Below, piece after piece: positions 15,372 to 50,490 of a stretch of DNA of 50,490 nt (position 1 is the first letter of the stretch; each line of letters opens with the position of its first letter). Position numbers and translations under genes: made by a program. This stretch comes from Bacteroidota bacterium. Lineage in GTDB: Bacteria; Bacteroidota; Ignavibacteria; Kapaibacteriales; UBA2268. Below the pieces are notes generated by a model. That model did no database searches, was not told the origin of the DNA, and saw only the letters and a list, made by a program, of their open reading frames with translations. The stretch lies in contig JAKAKE010000024.1 of the NCBI GenBank assembly GCA_021824625.1, forward strand, positions 1 to 50,490. Direction: 5' to 3'.

Positions 15372-15473
15372 AAATCAGCATATTTATTTAAACAGCACTT
15401 CCGCTTTTAAACATAAAGACACATCTACTATAATAAAAGTTACAACCATATTTAAAAAAATTTTCAATTTCCA

Positions 15474-15820
15474 AGTCAACAGTCGTTAGTCGTTAGTCAA
15501 TAATTGTTTGTTATTGTTTTCAACTTCCGACTTCCAACTTCCGACTTCCGACTTCCAACTTCCAACTTCCAACTTCCGACTTCCAACTTCCGACTTCCAA
15601 CTTCCGACTTCCGACTTCCGACTTCCAACTTCCGACTTCCGACTTCCGACTTCCGACTTCTGACTTCCGACTTCCGACTTCTGACTTCCGACTTCTGACT
15701 TCCGACTTCCGACTTCCGACTTCCGACTTCCGACTTCCGACTTCCGACTTCTGACTTCCGACTTCTGACTTCCGACTTCTGACTTCCGACTTCCAACTTC
15801 CGACTTCCGACTTCCGACTT
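15474..15820. repeat. 42-unit heptanucleotide tandem array (ACTTCCG) with in-phase flanking heptamers; fills the 15372-15820 gap
   Basis: From 15523 to 15820 there are 42 complete 7-bp units plus four bases, all of the form ACTTC(C/T)(G/A). ACTTCCA variants cluster at the sigma-gene side (units 2-15) and ACTTCTG variants toward the other side (units 20-37). The flank 15474-15522 keeps the same 7-bp register with other units (AGTCAAC, AGTCGTT twice, AGTCAAT). The array starts directly after the stop codon of the OmpA-like gene (stop at 15821-15823, minus strand). Because 7 is not a multiple of 3 and no stop is formed, long spurious reading frames exist on both strands. The remaining gap, 15372-15473, shows no gene and would hold the sigma-gene promoter. 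Confidence 0.97.
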
Positions 15821-17899
15821 TTATTCATTTACGGGAGTTTCAATTTTAATTTTTACTGTCCTGCAATAGCTCCTGCCTTGAGGCAAGTCATTGTTATATA
15901 AAAGGACATCGCTGCCAATCGGATTAATATTCAGATTGGATTTATTAACATTTAGTATGTTTTGAACTTCGTTACAACGTCTCAGGGCGAGTTCCCTATT
16001 GTATATTTGTTCGCCTGTTCTATCAGCATATCCTTCAATTGTTACAATAGAATTAGGCATAATCCTTTGTTTTATTTCATCCAATATTTTCTTATGGCCG
16101 GGTTTAATATTTGCCTTATCATAATCAAATAAGATTAAAGAAAATCTTTCTATTCTTTTATCTTCCTTCAGTTCATATCTTTTCTTTCTGATAGTCAACT
16201 GCTCAATAAGAAGAGAAGTTTCAGCTTCTGTCATTTGGTCAACATTATCATTTGCAGTTAACTTTATTTTCACAGGCGAATCAAGTTTCGGAATCGGTTC
16301 TTTCTCAACTTCCCAAACCAGCTTTCCAGGTTCCTTGATTGTCATTCTGAGCGAAGTCGAAGAATCTCTTGGTGAATATTTTCTTAATACATTACCTGAT
16401 TGTTCAACTGTTATCTCCCAATCTGTCAATTCAGCCTCACAAAGAATATTTGGTTCAATCTCGACAACAGGTGGATTTGATTTCCTGTCTATTTCTTTCA
16501 GGTAAACAGGTTTTAATAAATCAAAGCTTGTAGAACTTAATTCTGCTCTTTGATTCTCAATCTGTCCGTCAATAACAGTGTTATTACCGGGATTTTCGGG
16601 AAGGTTTCTTTCATTAACAATTAATCTTTCAGGTTTGATTCCCCAAATATTAACTAAATACTCCTTAACGGCTTCTGCTCTCTTTCGCGACAAATTTAAA
16701 TTATTTGTTTCAACTCCCAGATTCTTATTACAGCCTGTGAGTGTCAGTTTCTCCTTTGGCTTATGCCTCATTCTGTATCCTACAATATTGAGCAGGTCGG
16801 AATAAATATCCATAATGTTCCGATTCATAGAATCCTCGACGAAAGAGTTAGTCTTGCTCTTTGTCAATAGATGCAATCCTGTTGTATTAATATCCGAACT
16901 ACCCTCTTTAAAAAACACATGAGGAAGCAAAGGAAAACCTTCTTCAATTTCAGTTTCCTCTATAACAATAGTTGGAGTCTTCTGTCTGTTGCCATCTGCA
17001 CTGATACCGTAGGCTTCAATGGCGGCTGTCAACTTTGGTTTTGGCAATGGTAAAACCGTGTCAACCCGTTCAATCTTTTTTATAACCGGTGGAGGTTCAA
17101 CATGAGGATAAAATGGAAATTTTATGGATGCTCCCAATTGCAAATGATTTGGTTTCCAATTAACGGATGTTACATTTATAAAACCGATATAATATTTAAT
17201 TTCAGGTATTAAATACGTATTTCTTCCAATTGGTAATTCATAGCCCAGTCCAACCATACCAAATAAAAGGATAGAATTTTTATTAGGTATTTCAATGTTA
17301 TAATAATCATTTTGAATTGTTCTTCCATCAAGAAATGTAACATTTTCAGGAGAAATTAATTGTTCCTTCTGGTTCATTGTTCCCGTAACAATATACCCGG
17401 CTTTTAAACCAAAACTTGCAATAAATCCATGCAAAAATTTCATTTTAAAAATTGGTTCAAAACTGATAATATCAATTTTTGAATCAATTGTATGGTCAAC
17501 TGCCACATCCACAACCTCGGTAATCCCGTTTCTCAAAACTGTTGTATTGGCTATTTTTTTATCATGAACCAATAGCTCGGCACCGATAGAAGAATAACCT
17601 GATCTGCCCTCGATAAACATATCGTTTTTGATTTCATAATCAAACAATGCACCAAGGCTGAAACCGCTTCCTGTACCACTTGTGAAACCCTTGCAACAAT
17701 TCGGCACAGGCGGTATTTCTTTGAAATCGGCACTATGAATATTCAGATTATATCCTGCATATCCACCGAGATAAAATAGTGGTTTGAGACTCTTCAGAGT
17801 TGTATCATTGCTCTCACCCCGAGCATTATCTAAGAGTAAAACATAAGTTATTGCAATAACAAATAAAATTTTAAATATTTTCATTTTTTTATTCTTCAT
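15821..17899 (-). CDS. OmpA-like outer-membrane protein with two OmpA-like modules
   Basis: A 692-aa protein. The ATG at 17899 lies inside a heptamer array, and Met6 (17884), which begins MKIFKILFVIAIT, gives a more ordinary signal peptide, so the true start may be there. Residues ~35-260 look like a porin-type barrel (FYLGGYAGYNLNI, GSGFSLGALFDYEI, GLGYELPIGRNTYLI). Two OmpA-like regions follow: one around residues 340-450 (LNLSRKRAEAVKEYL) and a canonical C-terminal one at ~590-690 (FDYDKANIKPGHKKIL, VTIEGYADRTGEQIYNRELA). The C-terminal domain normally binds peptidoglycan. Between them, at residues ~510-520, a dispersed DNA repeat is translated as SSTSLRMT. Stop is followed at once by the 42-unit heptamer array and then the ECF sigma gene. 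Confidence 0.85.
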   Translation of the reverse strand: MKNKKMKIFKILFVIAITYVLLLDNARGESNDTTLKSLKPLFYLGGYAGYNLNIHSADFKEIPPVPNCCKGFTSGTGSGFSLGALFDYEIKNDMFIEGRSGYSSIGAELLVHDKKIANTTVLRNGITEVVDVAVDHTIDSKIDIISFEPIFKMKFLHGFIASFGLKAGYIVTGTMNQKEQLISPENVTFLDGRTIQNDYYNIEIPNKNSILLFGMVGLGYELPIGRNTYLIPEIKYYIGFINVTSVNWKPNHLQLGASIKFPFYPHVEPPPVIKKIERVDTVLPLPKPKLTAAIEAYGISADGNRQKTPTIVIEETEIEEGFPLLPHVFFKEGSSDINTTGLHLLTKSKTNSFVEDSMNRNIMDIYSDLLNIVGYRMRHKPKEKLTLTGCNKNLGVETNNLNLSRKRAEAVKEYLVNIWGIKPERLIVNERNLPENPGNNTVIDGQIENQRAELSSTSFDLLKPVYLKEIDRKSNPPVVEIEPNILCEAELTDWEITVEQSGNVLRKYSPRDSSTSLRMTIKEPGKLVWEVEKEPIPKLDSPVKIKLTANDNVDQMTEAETSLLIEQLTIRKKRYELKEDKRIERFSLILFDYDKANIKPGHKKILDEIKQRIMPNSIVTIEGYADRTGEQIYNRELALRRCNEVQNILNVNKSNLNINPIGSDVLLYNNDLPQGRSYCRTVKIKIETPVNE
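16341..16368 (-). repeat. Dispersed GTCATTCTGA-type repeat inside the OmpA-like gene
   Basis: Plus-strand sequence starts GTCATTCTGAGCGAAGTCGA and continues AGAATCTC. Related copies lie at 23941-23966 and 45515-45539 (intergenic) and, in reverse orientation, at 46457-46482 inside the GAF/GGDEF gene. Here it is read in frame as DSSTSLRMT, the same peptide frame as in the GAF/GGDEF protein (DPSTSLRMT). Confidence 0.85.
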
Positions 17900-43285: not shown

Positions 43286-43711
43286 ATGATTGAAAAAACT
43301 TTGGCGATAATTAAGCCGGATGCCGTAAAAAATAATGTGATTGGTGAAATATTAAGTATGATTACAAAAGCGGGTTTTAAGGTACTGGGAATGAGATATA
43401 CTAAAATTAATAAAGAGCAGGCCGGTGCTTTTTACGAAGTACATAAGGAAATGCCGTTTTATGCTGACCTTGTTGAATATATGAGCAGTGGAGCGATTGT
43501 TCCTGTCGCTTTGGAAAAAGAAAATGCAATCGGGGATTTCAGAAAACTAATTGGAAGCACAGACCCGGCTCAGGCTGATGAAGGTACTGTCAGAAAACTA
43601 TACGGCGAATCGAAATCTTATAATGCGATTCATGGTTCTGATTCTGCTGAAAACGGATTAATAGAAATAGGATTTTTCTTTAGTAAAAGCGAGATTGTTC
43701 TTAGTAATTAA
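43286..43711 (+). CDS. ndk: Nucleoside diphosphate kinase
   Basis: An enzyme (141 aa from this start) that equalises nucleoside triphosphates by a phosphohistidine mechanism. I choose the ATG at 43286 because the protein then begins [20 protein letters not shown], exactly as in the family, and GAGG lies about 6 bp upstream; an in-frame ATG at 43262 adds eight unusual residues. Active-site His116 is in [12 protein letters not shown]. Other family motifs: [40 protein letters not shown]. Its stop is 1 bp from the start of the NUDIX gene, so translation is probably coupled. Confidence 0.96.
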
Positions 43712-43712
43712 T

Positions 43713-44279
43713 ATGCTGAAAACACTTGAACAGATAAGTACTGAATCAAAATTTGTAAACCCATTTTGGGAATACAAAGTTGATAAATACAAAATGCCTA
43801 CAGGAAGAATCAGTGAATATCATTATGTTAATTCCCGGGGTGCTGCTATCATTATACCAATCACCGATAATAATAAATTCTTGATGATAAATCAGTTCAG
43901 ATATCTGAATCGAAGAACAAGTCTTGAATTTCCCGGTGGGGGTATTAAAGATAAAATGAGCCCTTTAGAAAATGCAAAAAAAGAATTATTGGAAGAAACA
44001 GGATATACGGCATCTTCAATTAGGTTAATTGGCGAGTACAATCCATATAATGGCGTTACAAATGAAATGTGCCATGTGTTTGTAGCTGAAGGATTGAAGA
44101 TTGCTAAGACAATCGAGACTGATGATTCGACCATGCTCGGCATGACAACTCATGATGAAAGCGAAGAGTTTGAAATTTTAGAATTAAAAATACAGGAAAT
44201 AAACAATAAAATCATCAAAGCTGATATCTGGGATGGTATGACACTTGCGGCATGGGCAATTTATTCAATTACAAATTAA
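43713..44279 (+). CDS. NUDIX hydrolase (ADP-ribose pyrophosphatase-like)
   Basis: A 188-aa protein from ATG 43713 (an earlier in-frame ATG overlaps ndk). The Nudix box is visible as GGGIKDKMSPLENAKKELLE then ETGYTA, with the conserved E-x7-(K/R)E-x-x-EE core (KELLEE in place of REL.EE). The preceding INQFRYLNRRTSLEFPGGG segment is typical of ADP-ribose pyrophosphatases. Such enzymes hydrolyse nucleoside diphosphate-X compounds with Mg2+. The substrate is not certain. The gene follows ndk by 1 bp, suggesting shared nucleotide-metabolism control. The last codons and stop (TAA at 44277-44279) lie inside a heptamer array that runs on to 44344. Confidence 0.9.
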   Translation: MLKTLEQISTESKFVNPFWEYKVDKYKMPTGRISEYHYVNSRGAAIIIPITDNNKFLMINQFRYLNRRTSLEFPGGGIKDKMSPLENAKKELLEETGYTASSIRLIGEYNPYNGVTNEMCHVFVAEGLKIAKTIETDDSTMLGMTTHDESEEFEILELKIQEINNKIIKADIWDGMTLAAWAIYSITN

Positions 44280-45868: not shown

Positions 45869-48262
45869 ATGTTTAAAAGAAAAATAAATATTAAAAAGGT
45901 ATTAATACCAAGCGACAGCATTGCGATTGTAGTAATATTAATAGGATTGCTTATTGCATTGTTTTTATCTGAACTGGCAATCAGGCTGATTGGAGTATCA
46001 ATTATGATTCTCGGTGCGGTTGCTTTGTTTATGTTAATATCCCAAAGACTGTCTGAAATAGTCGAATCGAATAAATTTAAAGCCTCCACACCAGCACCAA
46101 ATTATAATATAACAATCAAAAAAGATACTGCGGCTAAACGCCAGACTATAGAAAATTTTGAAGCTACTTTCACGCCCGAAGAACAAAAATCAATTACGAA
46201 TTACGATTTACGAATTACGAATGAATCGCCAGCAGAAGGATACATGACTCAAGAAGAGGGTTTCAGGATAATCGGGAAAAAAGATGCAGGAACAATTACG
46301 AATTACGATTTACGAATTACGAATGAAGAAGTAAAGCCACAGGTATCCGTAGCAGATGATTTTGAATTTGAGGAAGAGATTTCCGGTATAAAAATTTTAG
46401 GAAAGAAGGAAGCTGAATTATTTACCAATGACGTATTACTAATTACTAATGAAGCTGATCCTTCGACTTCGCTCAGGATGACAGCTGAGCAAGAATTGTT
46501 TGCTGAAAAGATAGAGGAGGCAAAAGAGCCGGAATTATTTGAAGAAAAATCCCCCGAACCCCCTTTGATAAAGAGGGAAAGAACTGAGAAAATAGTTGCA
46601 GATTTAAAGGAACAGATTAGTAAGAATTTCAAGGAACAAGCTGAAGAAAAGCCCCCCGAACCCGCTTCAAAAAAGGATGAAAAATCTGTTGGGATTAAGC
46701 CGATTTATGACGGACAGGAATATAAGGAGAAGTATAAGGAGAAACATCTCGATATTCCGATTTCTGAATTAATCGAGAATGAACCGATCTTCGGGCAGGA
46801 ACCAAGAAAAGAATTTCAATACTTCTTATCGAAAGCATTAACAATAATCCGGTCTGTTACAATAACTCGTACAGCAACTTTCATTATGGTAAATACTGAA
46901 AAAGAAGAGTTGATTTTAGAAGCTTTCGTTTCTGATTATCCTTATGCTATAACCAAGAAATTAAAATTTCCGATAGGGAACGACATTGTAAGCCAGATTA
47001 TTAAAAATCTGAAACCTGAAATCCTTACTGAAATAAATCCTGCGGCTGAGCTTGACTTGATACCTTATTACAAGCAATCAGTTGGTACAAGTTCTTTTAT
47101 TGGTGTTCCGGTGTTCTATGACGGCTCGATAATAGGTATCATCTGTGCTGATTCGGATGTTGTGGATTCTTATGATGCAAACACTGTCGGATTTTTAGGA
47201 CATTTCACAAAACTGATCGGCTCACTTCTTCACAGCTATATCGAGAAACATGACTTAAAACAAAATTCAAGAACTTTAGAGGCAATTAACAAGTTCAGGT
47301 CAATCAGCGCAAACAGGAATGCTACTGTTGATGATATTATAGAATCAGTCGTTGATGCGGCAACCGGTGTTTTTGAATTTATGAACATTGGAATTTGTGC
47401 TTTCGATGATTCTATCAATAAATGGATAATAAAATCATTTAGGACAAAAGAAGATACAACCGAAAACATTCAGGGAACAATAATCAGTATCCAGTCTTCT
47501 CTTGTAGGTAAATCAATGACGACAAATAATACGGTTTATGTTTCACCTGTAAATGAAAATATTATTCGTTTCAATCCTGATGAGCCTCCAGGTGCCAAGG
47601 GATACTTTGTTTCCGTACCTTTGAAAACATTTACAAATAATTATGGGGCATTATTTGTCGAAGGTGCCAGTCCATCAAGTATGACCTCTTATGATGTAAA
47701 CGTGCTTGAAACTCTTGGGGAACATGCAGGGGCAGCACTGGAGCAAATACAGTTTTACAAAGTACTTCAATTCAGTTCATTGATTGATATATCAACCGGA
47801 CTATATAATCCTCCTGCTCTGTATCAGCGGCTTGAAGAAGAATATCTAAGAAGTAAGGAAATAAAAAGTAAATTCACATTTTGCCTTATTCAAATTGATA
47901 AATATGCTTCATTCAACCCCGAAAAGTATCAGGACAGAGCAGAGCTTGTATTTGAACATATTACAAAAGTCATTCATAAGCATATCCGAAGTTTTGATGT
48001 ATGTGGCAGGGTTGATTCGAATACTATGGGAATTGTACTGATTGGAACAAATCTCAATGAATCTAAGTTATGGGCTGAAAAGGTACGGTCCGAAACAGCT
48101 ACATCAGAATTCAGTATTGGAAATAAACGATTCAATGTAACTGTCAGCATGGGTATTTCAGAATCCAGCAAAGCTGCTAATGTGGAGGAATTAATATCAA
48201 ATACCAGGAAAGTACTTGAGATTTCTGTCGGAAAAACAAATTGTGTCTCGGTGTTCACATAA
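45869..48262 (+). CDS. Membrane protein with two GAF domains and a degenerate GGDEF domain
   Basis: A 797-aa protein. Residues ~10-55 hold two hydrophobic helices (IAVVILIGLLIALFLSELAI; VSIMILGAVALFMLI). Residues ~105-275 are a variable linker built largely from in-frame DNA repeats. A GAF domain lies around 300-450 (IGVPVFYDGSIIGIICADSD) and a second around 470-640 (GVFEFMNIGICAFDDSINKW, YGALFVEGASPSSMTSYDV). The C-terminal ~150 residues are a GGDEF-type fold (DISTGLYNPPALYQRLEEEY, FCLIQIDKYASF, VSMGISE), but the catalytic loop is GRVDSNTMG instead of GGDEF, so c-di-GMP synthesis is unlikely. A sensory or ligand-binding role is inferred. A hairpin repeat separates it from RNase R. Confidence 0.83.
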   Translation: MFKRKINIKKVLIPSDSIAIVVILIGLLIALFLSELAIRLIGVSIMILGAVALFMLISQRLSEIVESNKFKASTPAPNYNITIKKDTAAKRQTIENFEATFTPEEQKSITNYDLRITNESPAEGYMTQEEGFRIIGKKDAGTITNYDLRITNEEVKPQVSVADDFEFEEEISGIKILGKKEAELFTNDVLLITNEADPSTSLRMTAEQELFAEKIEEAKEPELFEEKSPEPPLIKRERTEKIVADLKEQISKNFKEQAEEKPPEPASKKDEKSVGIKPIYDGQEYKEKYKEKHLDIPISELIENEPIFGQEPRKEFQYFLSKALTIIRSVTITRTATFIMVNTEKEELILEAFVSDYPYAITKKLKFPIGNDIVSQIIKNLKPEILTEINPAAELDLIPYYKQSVGTSSFIGVPVFYDGSIIGIICADSDVVDSYDANTVGFLGHFTKLIGSLLHSYIEKHDLKQNSRTLEAINKFRSISANRNATVDDIIESVVDAATGVFEFMNIGICAFDDSINKWIIKSFRTKEDTTENIQGTIISIQSSLVGKSMTTNNTVYVSPVNENIIRFNPDEPPGAKGYFVSVPLKTFTNNYGALFVEGASPSSMTSYDVNVLETLGEHAGAALEQIQFYKVLQFSSLIDISTGLYNPPALYQRLEEEYLRSKEIKSKFTFCLIQIDKYASFNPEKYQDRAELVFEHITKVIHKHIRSFDVCGRVDSNTMGIVLIGTNLNESKLWAEKVRSETATSEFSIGNKRFNVTVSMGISESSKAANVEELISNTRKVLEISVGKTNCVSVFT
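46191..46326 (+). repeat. Two identical 34-bp heptamer-type repeats inside coding sequence
   Basis: Exact copies at 46191-46224 and 46293-46326 begin CAATTACGAATTACGATTTA and end CGAATTACGAATGA. Both are read in the same frame as ITNYDLRITNE. The repeat itself is made of AATTACG-type 7-bp units, the unit found between genes at 23794-23814. A third, diverged version (FTNDVLLITNE) follows at about 46421-46453. Confidence 0.93.
46457..46482 (+). repeat. GTCATTCTGA-type repeat inside the GAF/GGDEF gene
   Basis: GATCCTTCGACTTCGCTCAG followed by GATGAC is the reverse complement of the 16341 element with two or three changes. It is translated as DPSTSLRMT, the same peptide as in the OmpA-like protein. 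Confidence 0.85.
46551..46679 (+). repeat. Two CCCCC-type palindromic repeats inside the GAF/GGDEF gene
   Basis: Copy 1 (46551-46579) reads CCCCCGAACCCCCTTTGATA then AAGAGGGAA, encoding SPEPPLIKRE. Copy 2 (46652-46679) reads CCCCCCGAACCCGCTTCAAA then AAAGGATG, encoding PPEPASKKDE; it is more diverged. Both match the intergenic element at 25286-25314. Confidence 0.75.
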
Positions 48263-48271
48263 TAAATAAAC

Positions 48272-48292
48272 GGACAGAACGGTGTTCTGTCC
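48272..48292 (+). repeat. GGACAGAAC hairpin element between the GGDEF-like gene and rnr
   Basis: A perfect 9-bp stem, GGACAGAAC and GTTCTGTCC, around a GGT loop, 9 bp after the stop of the upstream gene and 13 bp before the RNase R start. There is no T-run, so it is a poor intrinsic terminator. The same element occurs with one mismatch inside RNase R at 49501-49521. Confidence 0.85.
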
Positions 48293-48305
48293 ATACAAAT
48301 TGAAT

Positions 48306-50490
48306 ATGGATAAGAATGAATTAGTAGAAAAAATTATAAATGCCCTTCGCGAAGCGGGAGCGCCTGTCCAATTATTCGACCTGTCGAAAACACTGCATAT
48401 TAAATCAGATTCTCTCGATTATCAGAAACTGAAATCCGAATTGAGAGAATTATCTATGCTTAAAATTATCGAAAGGTTATCGCGTAGAAAATTTGTTTTA
48501 AAAGAGTATGATGACAATTCAATCTACAAAGGAGTACTAAAAATCAGGGATGACAGGGCTTTTGTTGATATAAAGCCATCGGGGGGACAAAGCGATGTTC
48601 AGTCTGAACAAAATGAAATAAAAAAAGTATATATTAAAAAGAAACATCTTCAGACTGCATTCGAAGGTGATACTATACAAGTAAAAATTCTCGGTACGGG
48701 CAAAGGCAATAAAGCACGCGGTGAGGTTATTAGCATTTTAAACCGCTCTACTCATATCATAAGAGGAATAATTGAATTTGACAACAATATTACTTACTTA
48801 CTTCCGGATGATGATAAATATTATGTTGACTTTCTGATTCCAAAAAATAAACTGAACGGTGCTAAGCATGGAGAAAGAGTTAAAGCTTCATTTGTCTCAT
48901 GGGATGACAGAATGAAAAGTCCTTTGGCAGAGGTCATTGAAATTTTAAAAAGGAAAATTGCACCTACAGCCGATTTCGATTCGATTATTGAAGAATTTTA
49001 TCTTCCCGGAGATTTCAAACCGAATGTAATTGCTGAAGCTGATGAAGCAGCTAAGCCGGTTAGCAAAGAAATTATTAACAACCGTCTCGATTTGAGAAAA
49101 GAGCTAATTATAACGATAGATCCTGTAGATGCCAAGGATTTCGATGATGCTCTTTCACTTAAATTACTTGAAAACGGCAACTATGAACTCGGTGTACACA
49201 TAGCAGATGTCAGCCATTACATCAAAGAAAATACAAACATTGACAATGAAGCAAGATGGAGAGGAAACAGTATTTATCTTGTTGACCGTGTTATACCAAT
49301 GCTTCCTGAAAATCTCTCAAATAATATGTGTTCACTTCAACCTAATAAAGTACGTCTTGCCTACACGGTGTTTATGGAATTTACATCTTCGGGAGTTTTG
49401 AAAAAATATGCTCTTCGTGAGTCGGTAATAAAAAGCAAAAAAAGGTTTAATTATGATGAAGTGGATAAAATACTCATAACAGGTAAAGGAAAAAAAGTAA
49501 GGACAGAACATTGTGCTGTCCCTACAGGAGAAGATCCCCTTACAGATTTACTTTTGTCATTAAATAAACTTGCACAAACACTTAGAGAAAAAAGATATTC
49601 AAGTGGCGGTATAGATTTCGAAACATCAGAGGTGAAATTTCAAATTGAAAATGGTATCCCTACCTCAGCAGTTCTTAAAAAAAGCTCTCCGGCAACAATA
49701 CTTGTTGAGGAATGTATGCTTGCGGCTAACCAGGTGGTTGCGAAACATGTTAAGGTTCTTAGTCATAATCCCCCTGAATCCCCCTTTAAAAAAGGAGGAA
49801 AAGTGTTACCGTTTATATATAGGATACATGATGACCCGGTACAGCAGAAACTCGGCGAAGTCTTGGAATTTTTGAAAACACTGCGTCCTTCAATTACATT
49901 AAAAGGAAAAAAATCATCAGACATTAATAAATTTCTTGAGAGATTCGATGATTTACCTGAAAAACCTGTTGTTCATCAAATGCTTCTAAGGGCAATGGCA
50001 AAAGCTGTATATTCTGAAAAAAATATAGGGCATTATGGATTGGGATTTTCCGACTATTCTCATTTTACATCTCCAATCAGAAGGTATCCTGATTTGCAGG
50101 TACACCGGCTGCTCAAAGAATACAGTGATGGGAAAATAAAATTCGAACGTGTGAAATACCTTGAATCTGAAATGAAAATTGTGTCTGAACATTGTTCGGA
50201 CAGAGAAAGAATAGCTGTGGAAGCCGAAAGAGCATCGGTCAAACTGGCACAAACTGTACTTGCATCAAATTATCTTGGCAAAGAGTTTGACGGAACAATA
50301 TCGGGTGTAATAAGTTTTGGATTATTCGTTCTTCTTGATGATATTTACGCTGAAGGATTGCTGCACATCCGCGATTTGCATGATGATTTTTATTATTTTG
50401 AAGAACGCAATTACAGGCTTGTTGGAAGAAGATATAAACGAACATTTTCAATCGGAAAAAGAATAAGAGTCAAAATCACACACGTAAATA
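48306..50490 (+). CDS. rnr: Ribonuclease R (3' end beyond window)
   Basis: An open frame from ATG 48306 to the window end, 728 complete codons without a stop. RNase R is a processive 3'-to-5' exoribonuclease for structured RNA. The N-terminal helix-turn-helix region begins MDKNELVEKIINALREAGAP. Cold-shock domains follow (KGVLKIRDDRAFVDI; AFEGDTIQVKILG). The RNB catalytic domain has D272-P-V-D-A-K-D278-F-D280-D281, matching the metal-binding Asp set, then FTSPIRRYPDLQVHRLL. An S1 domain starts near GTISGVISFGLFVLLDDIYA. Three segments look like translated dispersed repeats: GQSDVQSEQ, RTEHCAVPTG and NPPESPFKKGG. No Shine-Dalgarno sequence is obvious. Confidence 0.95.
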   Translation, partial: MDKNELVEKIINALREAGAPVQLFDLSKTLHIKSDSLDYQKLKSELRELSMLKIIERLSRRKFVLKEYDDNSIYKGVLKIRDDRAFVDIKPSGGQSDVQSEQNEIKKVYIKKKHLQTAFEGDTIQVKILGTGKGNKARGEVISILNRSTHIIRGIIEFDNNITYLLPDDDKYYVDFLIPKNKLNGAKHGERVKASFVSWDDRMKSPLAEVIEILKRKIAPTADFDSIIEEFYLPGDFKPNVIAEADEAAKPVSKEIINNRLDLRKELIITIDPVDAKDFDDALSLKLLENGNYELGVHIADVSHYIKENTNIDNEARWRGNSIYLVDRVIPMLPENLSNNMCSLQPNKVRLAYTVFMEFTSSGVLKKYALRESVIKSKKRFNYDEVDKILITGKGKKVRTEHCAVPTGEDPLTDLLLSLNKLAQTLREKRYSSGGIDFETSEVKFQIENGIPTSAVLKKSSPATILVEECMLAANQVVAKHVKVLSHNPPESPFKKGGKVLPFIYRIHDDPVQQKLGEVLEFLKTLRPSITLKGKKSSDINKFLERFDDLPEKPVVHQMLLRAMAKAVYSEKNIGHYGLGFSDYSHFTSPIRRYPDLQVHRLLKEYSDGKIKFERVKYLESEMKIVSEHCSDRERIAVEAERASVKLAQTVLASNYLGKEFDGTISGVISFGLFVLLDDIYAEGLLHIRDLHDDFYYFEERNYRLVGRRYKRTFSIGKRIRVKITHVN
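48585..48604 (+). repeat. Possible decayed GGACAGAAC-type element in rnr
   Basis: GGACAAAGCGATGTTCAGTC shares 16 of 20 positions with the intact element at 48272-48291 and is translated as part of GQSDVQSEQ, in a loop between cold-shock strands. The match is suggestive only. Confidence 0.45.
49501..49521 (+). repeat. GGACAGAAC-type element translated within RNase R
   Basis: GGACAGAAC, ATT, GTGCTGTCC: the same palindrome as at 48272 with one mismatched pair. It is read in frame as RTEHCAVPTG in the loop after KILITGKGKK, where I expect other RNase R proteins to be shorter. Confidence 0.8.
49770..49800 (+). repeat. CCCCCTGAATCC-type element translated within RNase R
   Basis: CCCCCTGAATCCCCCTTTAA then AAAAGGAGGAA is nearly the consensus element (compare 25286-25314). 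It is read in frame as NPPESPFKKGGK between AKHVKVL and LPFIYRIHDD, a loop in the RNB domain. Confidence 0.85.

Follow-up and report, generated by a model that had tools for sequence, protein, structure and literature searches.

The window, i.e., the whole 50,490-nt stretch analysed (contig C203 of the genome G000, a draft assembly of 3.58 Mb in 231 contigs), ends within a gene for RNase R, which is preceded by a gene for a GAF-GGDEF protein; both carry short DNA repeats in frame (Table 1; repeat families F1 to F8 are described below). The nearest relatives of the same genus are G051 (Ignavibacteria bacterium RIFOXYC2_FULL_35_21), G052, and G053; genomes of this Ignavibacteria genus are draft assemblies of 3.4-4.2 Mb.

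Table 1. Genes and repeat copies in the window and, in the last three lines, at two other loci of the study.
Feature	Position	Strand	Remarks
F4 copy, OmpA-family gene (15821-17899, minus)	16340-16366	-	In frame, common to G051
F4-like sequence, Nudix gene (43695-44279)	44126-44147	+	Within a 36-nt insert relative to G051
GAF-GGDEF protein	45869-48262	+	Upstream of RNase R; linker largely in-frame repeats of F2, F3, and F4
F3 copy, GAF-GGDEF linker	46191-46225	+	AATTACG units; encodes ITNYDLRITNE
F3 copy, GAF-GGDEF linker	46293-46327	+	Encodes ITNYDLRITNE; missing in G051
F4 copy, GAF-GGDEF linker	46457-46483	+	Encodes DPSTSLRMT
F2 copy, GAF-GGDEF linker	46546-46574	+	Encodes SPEPPLIKRE
F1 palindrome	48267-48297	.	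Between the GAF-GGDEF stop (48262) and the RNase R start (48306); 0-mismatch core, 24/28
RNase R coding sequence	48306-50490	+	3' end lost at contig end; TIGR02063, 676 bits; Pfam RNB, CSD2, OB_RNB, S1
RNase R site b	48573-48610	+	33-nt in-frame insert, probable decayed F1 at 48580-48610; encodes KPSGGQSDVQS/EQ
RNase R site c	49496-49541	+	45-nt in-frame insert, F1 copy at 49496-49526; encodes VRTEHCAVPTGEDPL
RNase R site d	49767-49797	+	F2 copy, encodes NPPESPFKKGG; common to G051
Short protein with F1 in signal peptide, L079	12337-13161	-	
Short protein with F1 in signal peptide, L079	13295-14128	-	
Short protein with F1 in signal peptide, L084	11701-12561		

Repeats within the RNase R gene

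The RNase R of G000 is 91% identical to its G051 orthologue. The first-pass annotation, made from the window alone, had placed three repeats inside the RNase R frame, at 49501, 49770, and 48585, and had considered the frame open and the catalytic Asp set preserved. Both claims are borne out: the repeats are an F1 copy (25/28), an F2 copy, and a probable decayed F1 copy (19/28), located at sites c, d, and b, respectively, and the catalytic motif IDPVDAKDFDDA with D272, D278, D280, and D281 is intact, as far as the gene is seen, its 3' part lying beyond the contig end. The intergenic F1 palindrome upstream of the gene has a decayed counterpart at the equivalent place in G051.

Thirty RNase R orthologues of the family were aligned, those of G000, G051, G052, and G053 and 26 further ones. 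At site b, 11 extra residues (33 nt) are present in G000 only, being absent from the three congeners and the 26 further family orthologues. The palindrome register at this site matches 19 of the 28 fixed positions of the F1 consensus, a chance match being rejected by shuffles (p ~6.5e-5), and taking the 31-nt palindrome and two more nucleotides out of the DNA closely recreates the empty site of G051. Since the palindrome register coincides with the G000-only insert, the latter probably represents F1 in decayed form, not a chance resemblance.

At site c, the core GGACAGAACATTGTGCTGTCC at 49501 matches F1 with no mismatches, the whole palindrome agrees with the consensus at 25 of 28 fixed positions, and the 15 extra residues (45 nt) are found in G000 and in no other aligned orthologue. 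The insert consists of the palindrome and ~14 nt more, and, according to the alignment with G051 DNA, both its flanks look like one and the same empty-site stretch, consistent with a possible degenerate target-site duplication of 14-18 nt; no such duplication was found at site b or at the F4 insert of locus L094.

The F2 copy at site d (CCCCCTGAATCC, 49770) occurs in G051 as well, encoding NPPESPIKKGG there, and is therefore older than the other two. The loop is of equal or near-equal length in G052 and G053, with other residues, and genera outside lack ~7 residues. Hence this copy is not a recent one. At sites c and d, a chance match is rejected by near-zero reversed-pattern controls.

The three stretches are absent from the solved RNase R structures of B. 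subtilis and E. coli. A weak AlphaFold model (mean pLDDT 62), taken as support for loop placement only, puts sites b, c, and d in low-confidence coil between structure elements. An example of a tryptic peptide spanning the RNase R/ValRS inserts, as predicted from sequence, is TEHCAVPTGEDPLTDLLLSLNK. The RNase R match of G053 (L019) contains one in-frame TAA.

Repeat families and the proteins they enter

RNase R is one instance of a genome-wide pattern, in which at least five families (F1-F5) lie in frame within proteins. The earlier statement that two unrelated families share one enzyme understated the situation, as many proteins are involved and 2-oxoglutarate dehydrogenase alone contains three families.

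F1 (TGTAGGGACAGAACATTGTTCTGTCCCTACA) is a 31-nt palindrome forming a perfect hairpin with a 14-bp perfect stem. In G000 it has 26 and 22 matches on the two strands, with none for the reversed-pattern control; all four congeners have it, and within the family it is also present in genus g25 and, as a single copy, in g9. With a strict pattern, none of the other genomes among 198 of the phylum gave a match. In genes, one of the two frames that are open in F1, VGTE[HQ]CSVPT, predominates. F2 (CCCCCTGAATCCCCC... / CCCCCTKAATCCCCCTTT...) has 49, 120, 15, and 16 matches in G000, G051, G052, and G053, respectively, vs. 3, 2, 0, and 0 for the controls. F3 is made of AATTACG units; F2 as well as F3 shows tandem expansion, e.g., 3 x 36 nt in a UvrD-type helicase. 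F4 (TTCGACTTCGCTCAGGATGACA) has no strong hairpin, and the length of its inserts hardly varies (24-27 nt) from one unrelated site to another. F5 is GTAGAGACA...TGTCTCTAC; F1 and F5 share the ends GTAG...CTAC. F6 and F7 lie beside RAYT genes, and F8 is a dispersed family with no known partner.

F4 is present in 15 of the 198 phylum genomes. In a distant Bacteroidota genome, G055 (loci L216-L245), it forms REPIN-like inverted pairs ~50 bp apart, and 28 of the 30 copies examined are intergenic; because of this, the single-unit, gene-entering state may be peculiar to the genus studied here.

According to Pfam, F1 enters NAD(P)H-hydrate dehydratase, 2-phosphosulpholactate phosphatase (near the N-terminus), and NamZ (in the signal peptide region); F2 enters a UvrD-type helicase with a PD-(D/E)XK domain, a shikimate dehydrogenase/kinase fusion, and a subtilase; F4 enters a RecN-like SMC protein, KDO transferase, an ABC-F-type ATPase, and OmpA, the Nudix sequence being F4-like. 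Valyl-tRNA synthetase (ValRS) carries F2 and F4, and 2-oxoglutarate dehydrogenase F1, F3, and F4. The latter protein in G000 (L204) also has an extra 31-aa segment around YYGKGLRAGIVESQKSNAKSESASHTPNTEEH that is missing from the three congeners and is not assigned to a repeat family. F1 is also found in frame within the signal-peptide region (MKKLNVGTEHCSVL...) of three related short proteins (Table 1). An array of 14-bp units in 20 register copies lies at the edge of the OmpA-family gene of the window (15448-15876).

Comparison of congeners reveals empty and filled versions of sites in RNase R, NAD(P)H-hydrate dehydratase, 2-oxoglutarate dehydrogenase, and ValRS. Among the four congeners, F1 in NAD(P)H-hydrate dehydratase is present in G000 only, and F4 in ValRS, at its site, in G051 only. 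Other copies persist between species, namely, F2 in ValRS and RNase R and F4 in OmpA and KDO transferase. Families also replace each other: one site of the subtilase holds F2 in G000 and F6 in G051, and near one site of ValRS there is F2 in G000 and G051 and an F4-like segment in G053. In the GAF-GGDEF protein, the folded domains are nearly identical in G000 and G051, while the linker of one contains F3, F4, and F2 and that of the other F4 and F5 types, with exchanges of F3 for F4 and of F4 for F5 at individual sites.

Genic and intergenic copies were counted in samples of ~0.74 Mb of G000 and ~1.6 Mb of G051, a copy being considered genic if it lay deep inside an open reading frame of about 150 aa or more. 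Genic copies make up 4/37 for F1, 27/91 for F2, 12/113 for F3, and 17/67 for F4, i.e., 60/308 in total, vs. 3/146 for F6, F7, and F8 combined (Fisher p ~3e-8); the counts are not fully independent, as one gene can hold several copies, and the G000 stretches were mostly picked for containing F1 or F2, which inflates repeat density there and should affect the genic-to-intergenic ratio less. Thus, F6, F7, and F8 almost never enter genes, and two of them, F6 and F7, are those found beside RAYT transposase genes. The orthologue-anchored test scored copies flanked on either side by sequence matching the same protein in the other species. Every scorable genic copy keeps the frame, with no out-of-frame case; genes destroyed by insertion are invisible to this test, some of the matches are distant (25-30% identity), and a copy that both species share is scored twice. 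Among 125 orthologue pairs, there are 18 inserts of at least 7 aa, six to eight of them being dispersed repeats. Repeat peptides occur in 16 of 497 proteins of at least 150 aa in G000 and in 22 of 1058 in G051, and in none of the reversed proteins of either genome.

Origin and spread of the repeats

Very probably, these are short mobile repeats of a REP/RPE-like kind that insert in many places, with selection retaining the copies that preserve the frame and lie in tolerant loops and linkers. The repeats would scatter through the genome, and copies landing in genes would survive only if the frame stays open and the loop or linker tolerates them. Dispersal, empty counterparts of filled sites in sister species, in-frame genic copies, and hot spots common to several families were observed directly, and there is good support for insertion with subsequent selection for frame and tolerance. 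The direction proposed at first pass, from intergenic DNA into the gene, agrees with these data. Two observations had been named as able to overturn it, the presence of the same residues in orthologues and the absence of the repeats from intergenic DNA; instead, the orthologues lack the residues at sites b and c and the repeats are common between genes. We infer that the copies move and do not merely multiply by local copying; they are presumably translated in the cell, and they are likely near-neutral passengers.

That the loops are native, their likeness to intergenic repeats arising by chance or from shared low complexity, is hardly credible. Sites c and d do vary in length over the family, the orthologues at L027 and L035 have unrelated long insertions at site c, and the match at site b is weak (19/28); against this, the reversed-pattern controls of F1 and F2 are near zero, unrelated proteins share the same peptides, which reversed proteins never contain, and the inserts are species-specific, so that for sites c and d this explanation is largely refuted. 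It is improbable, although less so, that the inserts are selected functional additions, such as binding segments or DNA/RNA signals, e.g., hairpins, rather than tolerated passengers. The preference of genic F1 for one frame and the persistence of several copies between species would fit such a role, whereas the replacement of one family by another at the same site, together with the unrelated nature of the host proteins, suggests tolerance, not function.

As to a possible mover of the repeats, 19 Y1_Tnp matches were found across the four congeners, and G000 has ~7 such genes. RAYT-like genes of this type with their own palindromic arrays lie at L049, L052, L054, L057, and L063 in G000 and at L051, L056, and L062 in G051; none of the 19 matches to Pfam Y1_Tnp in the genus has an F1-F5 array beside it. 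At L055 of G052, two F1 copies lie ~1 kb from a RAYT gene, the repeats of which are of the F7 type, and no convincing pair emerged when inverted F1 half-sites were sought around a transposase. The leading guess for the mover, because of the ~7 such genes in the genome and the GTAG...CTAC ends of F1 and F5, is a Y1 HUH transposase (RAYT/TnpA-REP) that would work in trans, which we propose tentatively, at somewhat less than even chances. Somewhat less likely is transposase-free copying, in which hairpins would seed template switching or gene conversion at replication forks: the lack of a transposase linked to F1-F5, the tandem expansion of F2 and F3, and the strong F1 hairpin point this way, while F4, without a strong hairpin and with inserts of near-constant length at unrelated sites, argues against it.

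Comparison with known systems and implications

The kind of phenomenon is already known, with precedents in the palindromic elements of Rickettsia (RPEs) and in intragenic REPs of Opitutus and others. RPE-1 to RPE-7 and their Wolbachia equivalents are dispersed palindromes inserted in frame in conserved proteins and also found between genes, and different groups of RPE-4/6/7 occupy the same loci in different species (PMC3767692, PMC2229807). The likeness to RPEs noted at first pass holds against the orthologues: F1 is palindromic, dispersed, both genic and intergenic, and inserted without loss of the open reading frame. In behaviour, including different groups at the same loci, RPEs are the closest system. 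However, they are 100-150 bp long and reside in reduced intracellular genomes, whereas here the units are 24-45 nt, the genomes of the genus are several megabases in size, and there are at least five families.

The closest in size are intragenic GTAG/CGTC REPs (Opitutus terrae, R. conorii, Thauera, Xanthomonas, and others), palindromes of 20-40 bp, some in repair and tRNA-related genes, that encode extra residues; their GTAG ends give TAG stops to neighbouring ORFs (PMC3733652). F1, with its 31 nt, falls within this range, and F1 and F5 have GTAG...CTAC ends. In contrast to REPs, where GTAG is unpaired at one end, the GTAG of F1 is paired with CTAC in the stem, so that both ends are involved; moreover, no RAYT linkage of F1-F5 was found among the Y1_Tnp matches, and F2, F3, and F4 have no GTAG tag. 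As in REPIN/RAYT systems, the genus has several Y1_Tnp genes flanked by their own arrays, and F4 forms inverted pairs in G055; however, the RAYT-linked families here are intergenic, while the gene-entering families are mostly single units with no linked RAYT. Bacterial MITEs (ERIC, YPAL, the Neisseria 107-bp element) are non-autonomous, have open frames, and are fused in frame to proteins (PMC2229807); being ~100-200 bp long, often with terminal inverted repeats and target duplication, they far exceed the units described here. Thus, F1 works like RPEs and GTAG REPs, yet is classed as neither, since it is shorter than RPEs and its GTAG is not unpaired. No literature naming these repeats or peptides, or in-frame repeats of Ignavibacteria, was found in a search that left most subscription journals outside.

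Rickettsia provides the best-known examples of in-frame palindromic insertion, which has usually been put down to the oddities of reduced genomes or seen in scattered REP cases. In the present genus, a larger genome, several repeat families, and central enzymes are involved, and sister species are near enough to read single insertion events. For annotation, peptides such as DPSTSLRMT, IPLNPPLxKGE, or NYELRITN in proteins should be read as repeat DNA. It is possible, if somewhat doubtful at present, that the repeats form an ultra-short mobile class, distinct from RAYT-linked REPs and readily entering coding sequences. Such a class would keep supplying essential enzymes with new protein segments from a shared pool, and a given hot spot would be occupied by one family in one species and by another family in the next. 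Two old questions, by what means repeats this small move and how frequently they leave lasting additions to proteins, now become testable.
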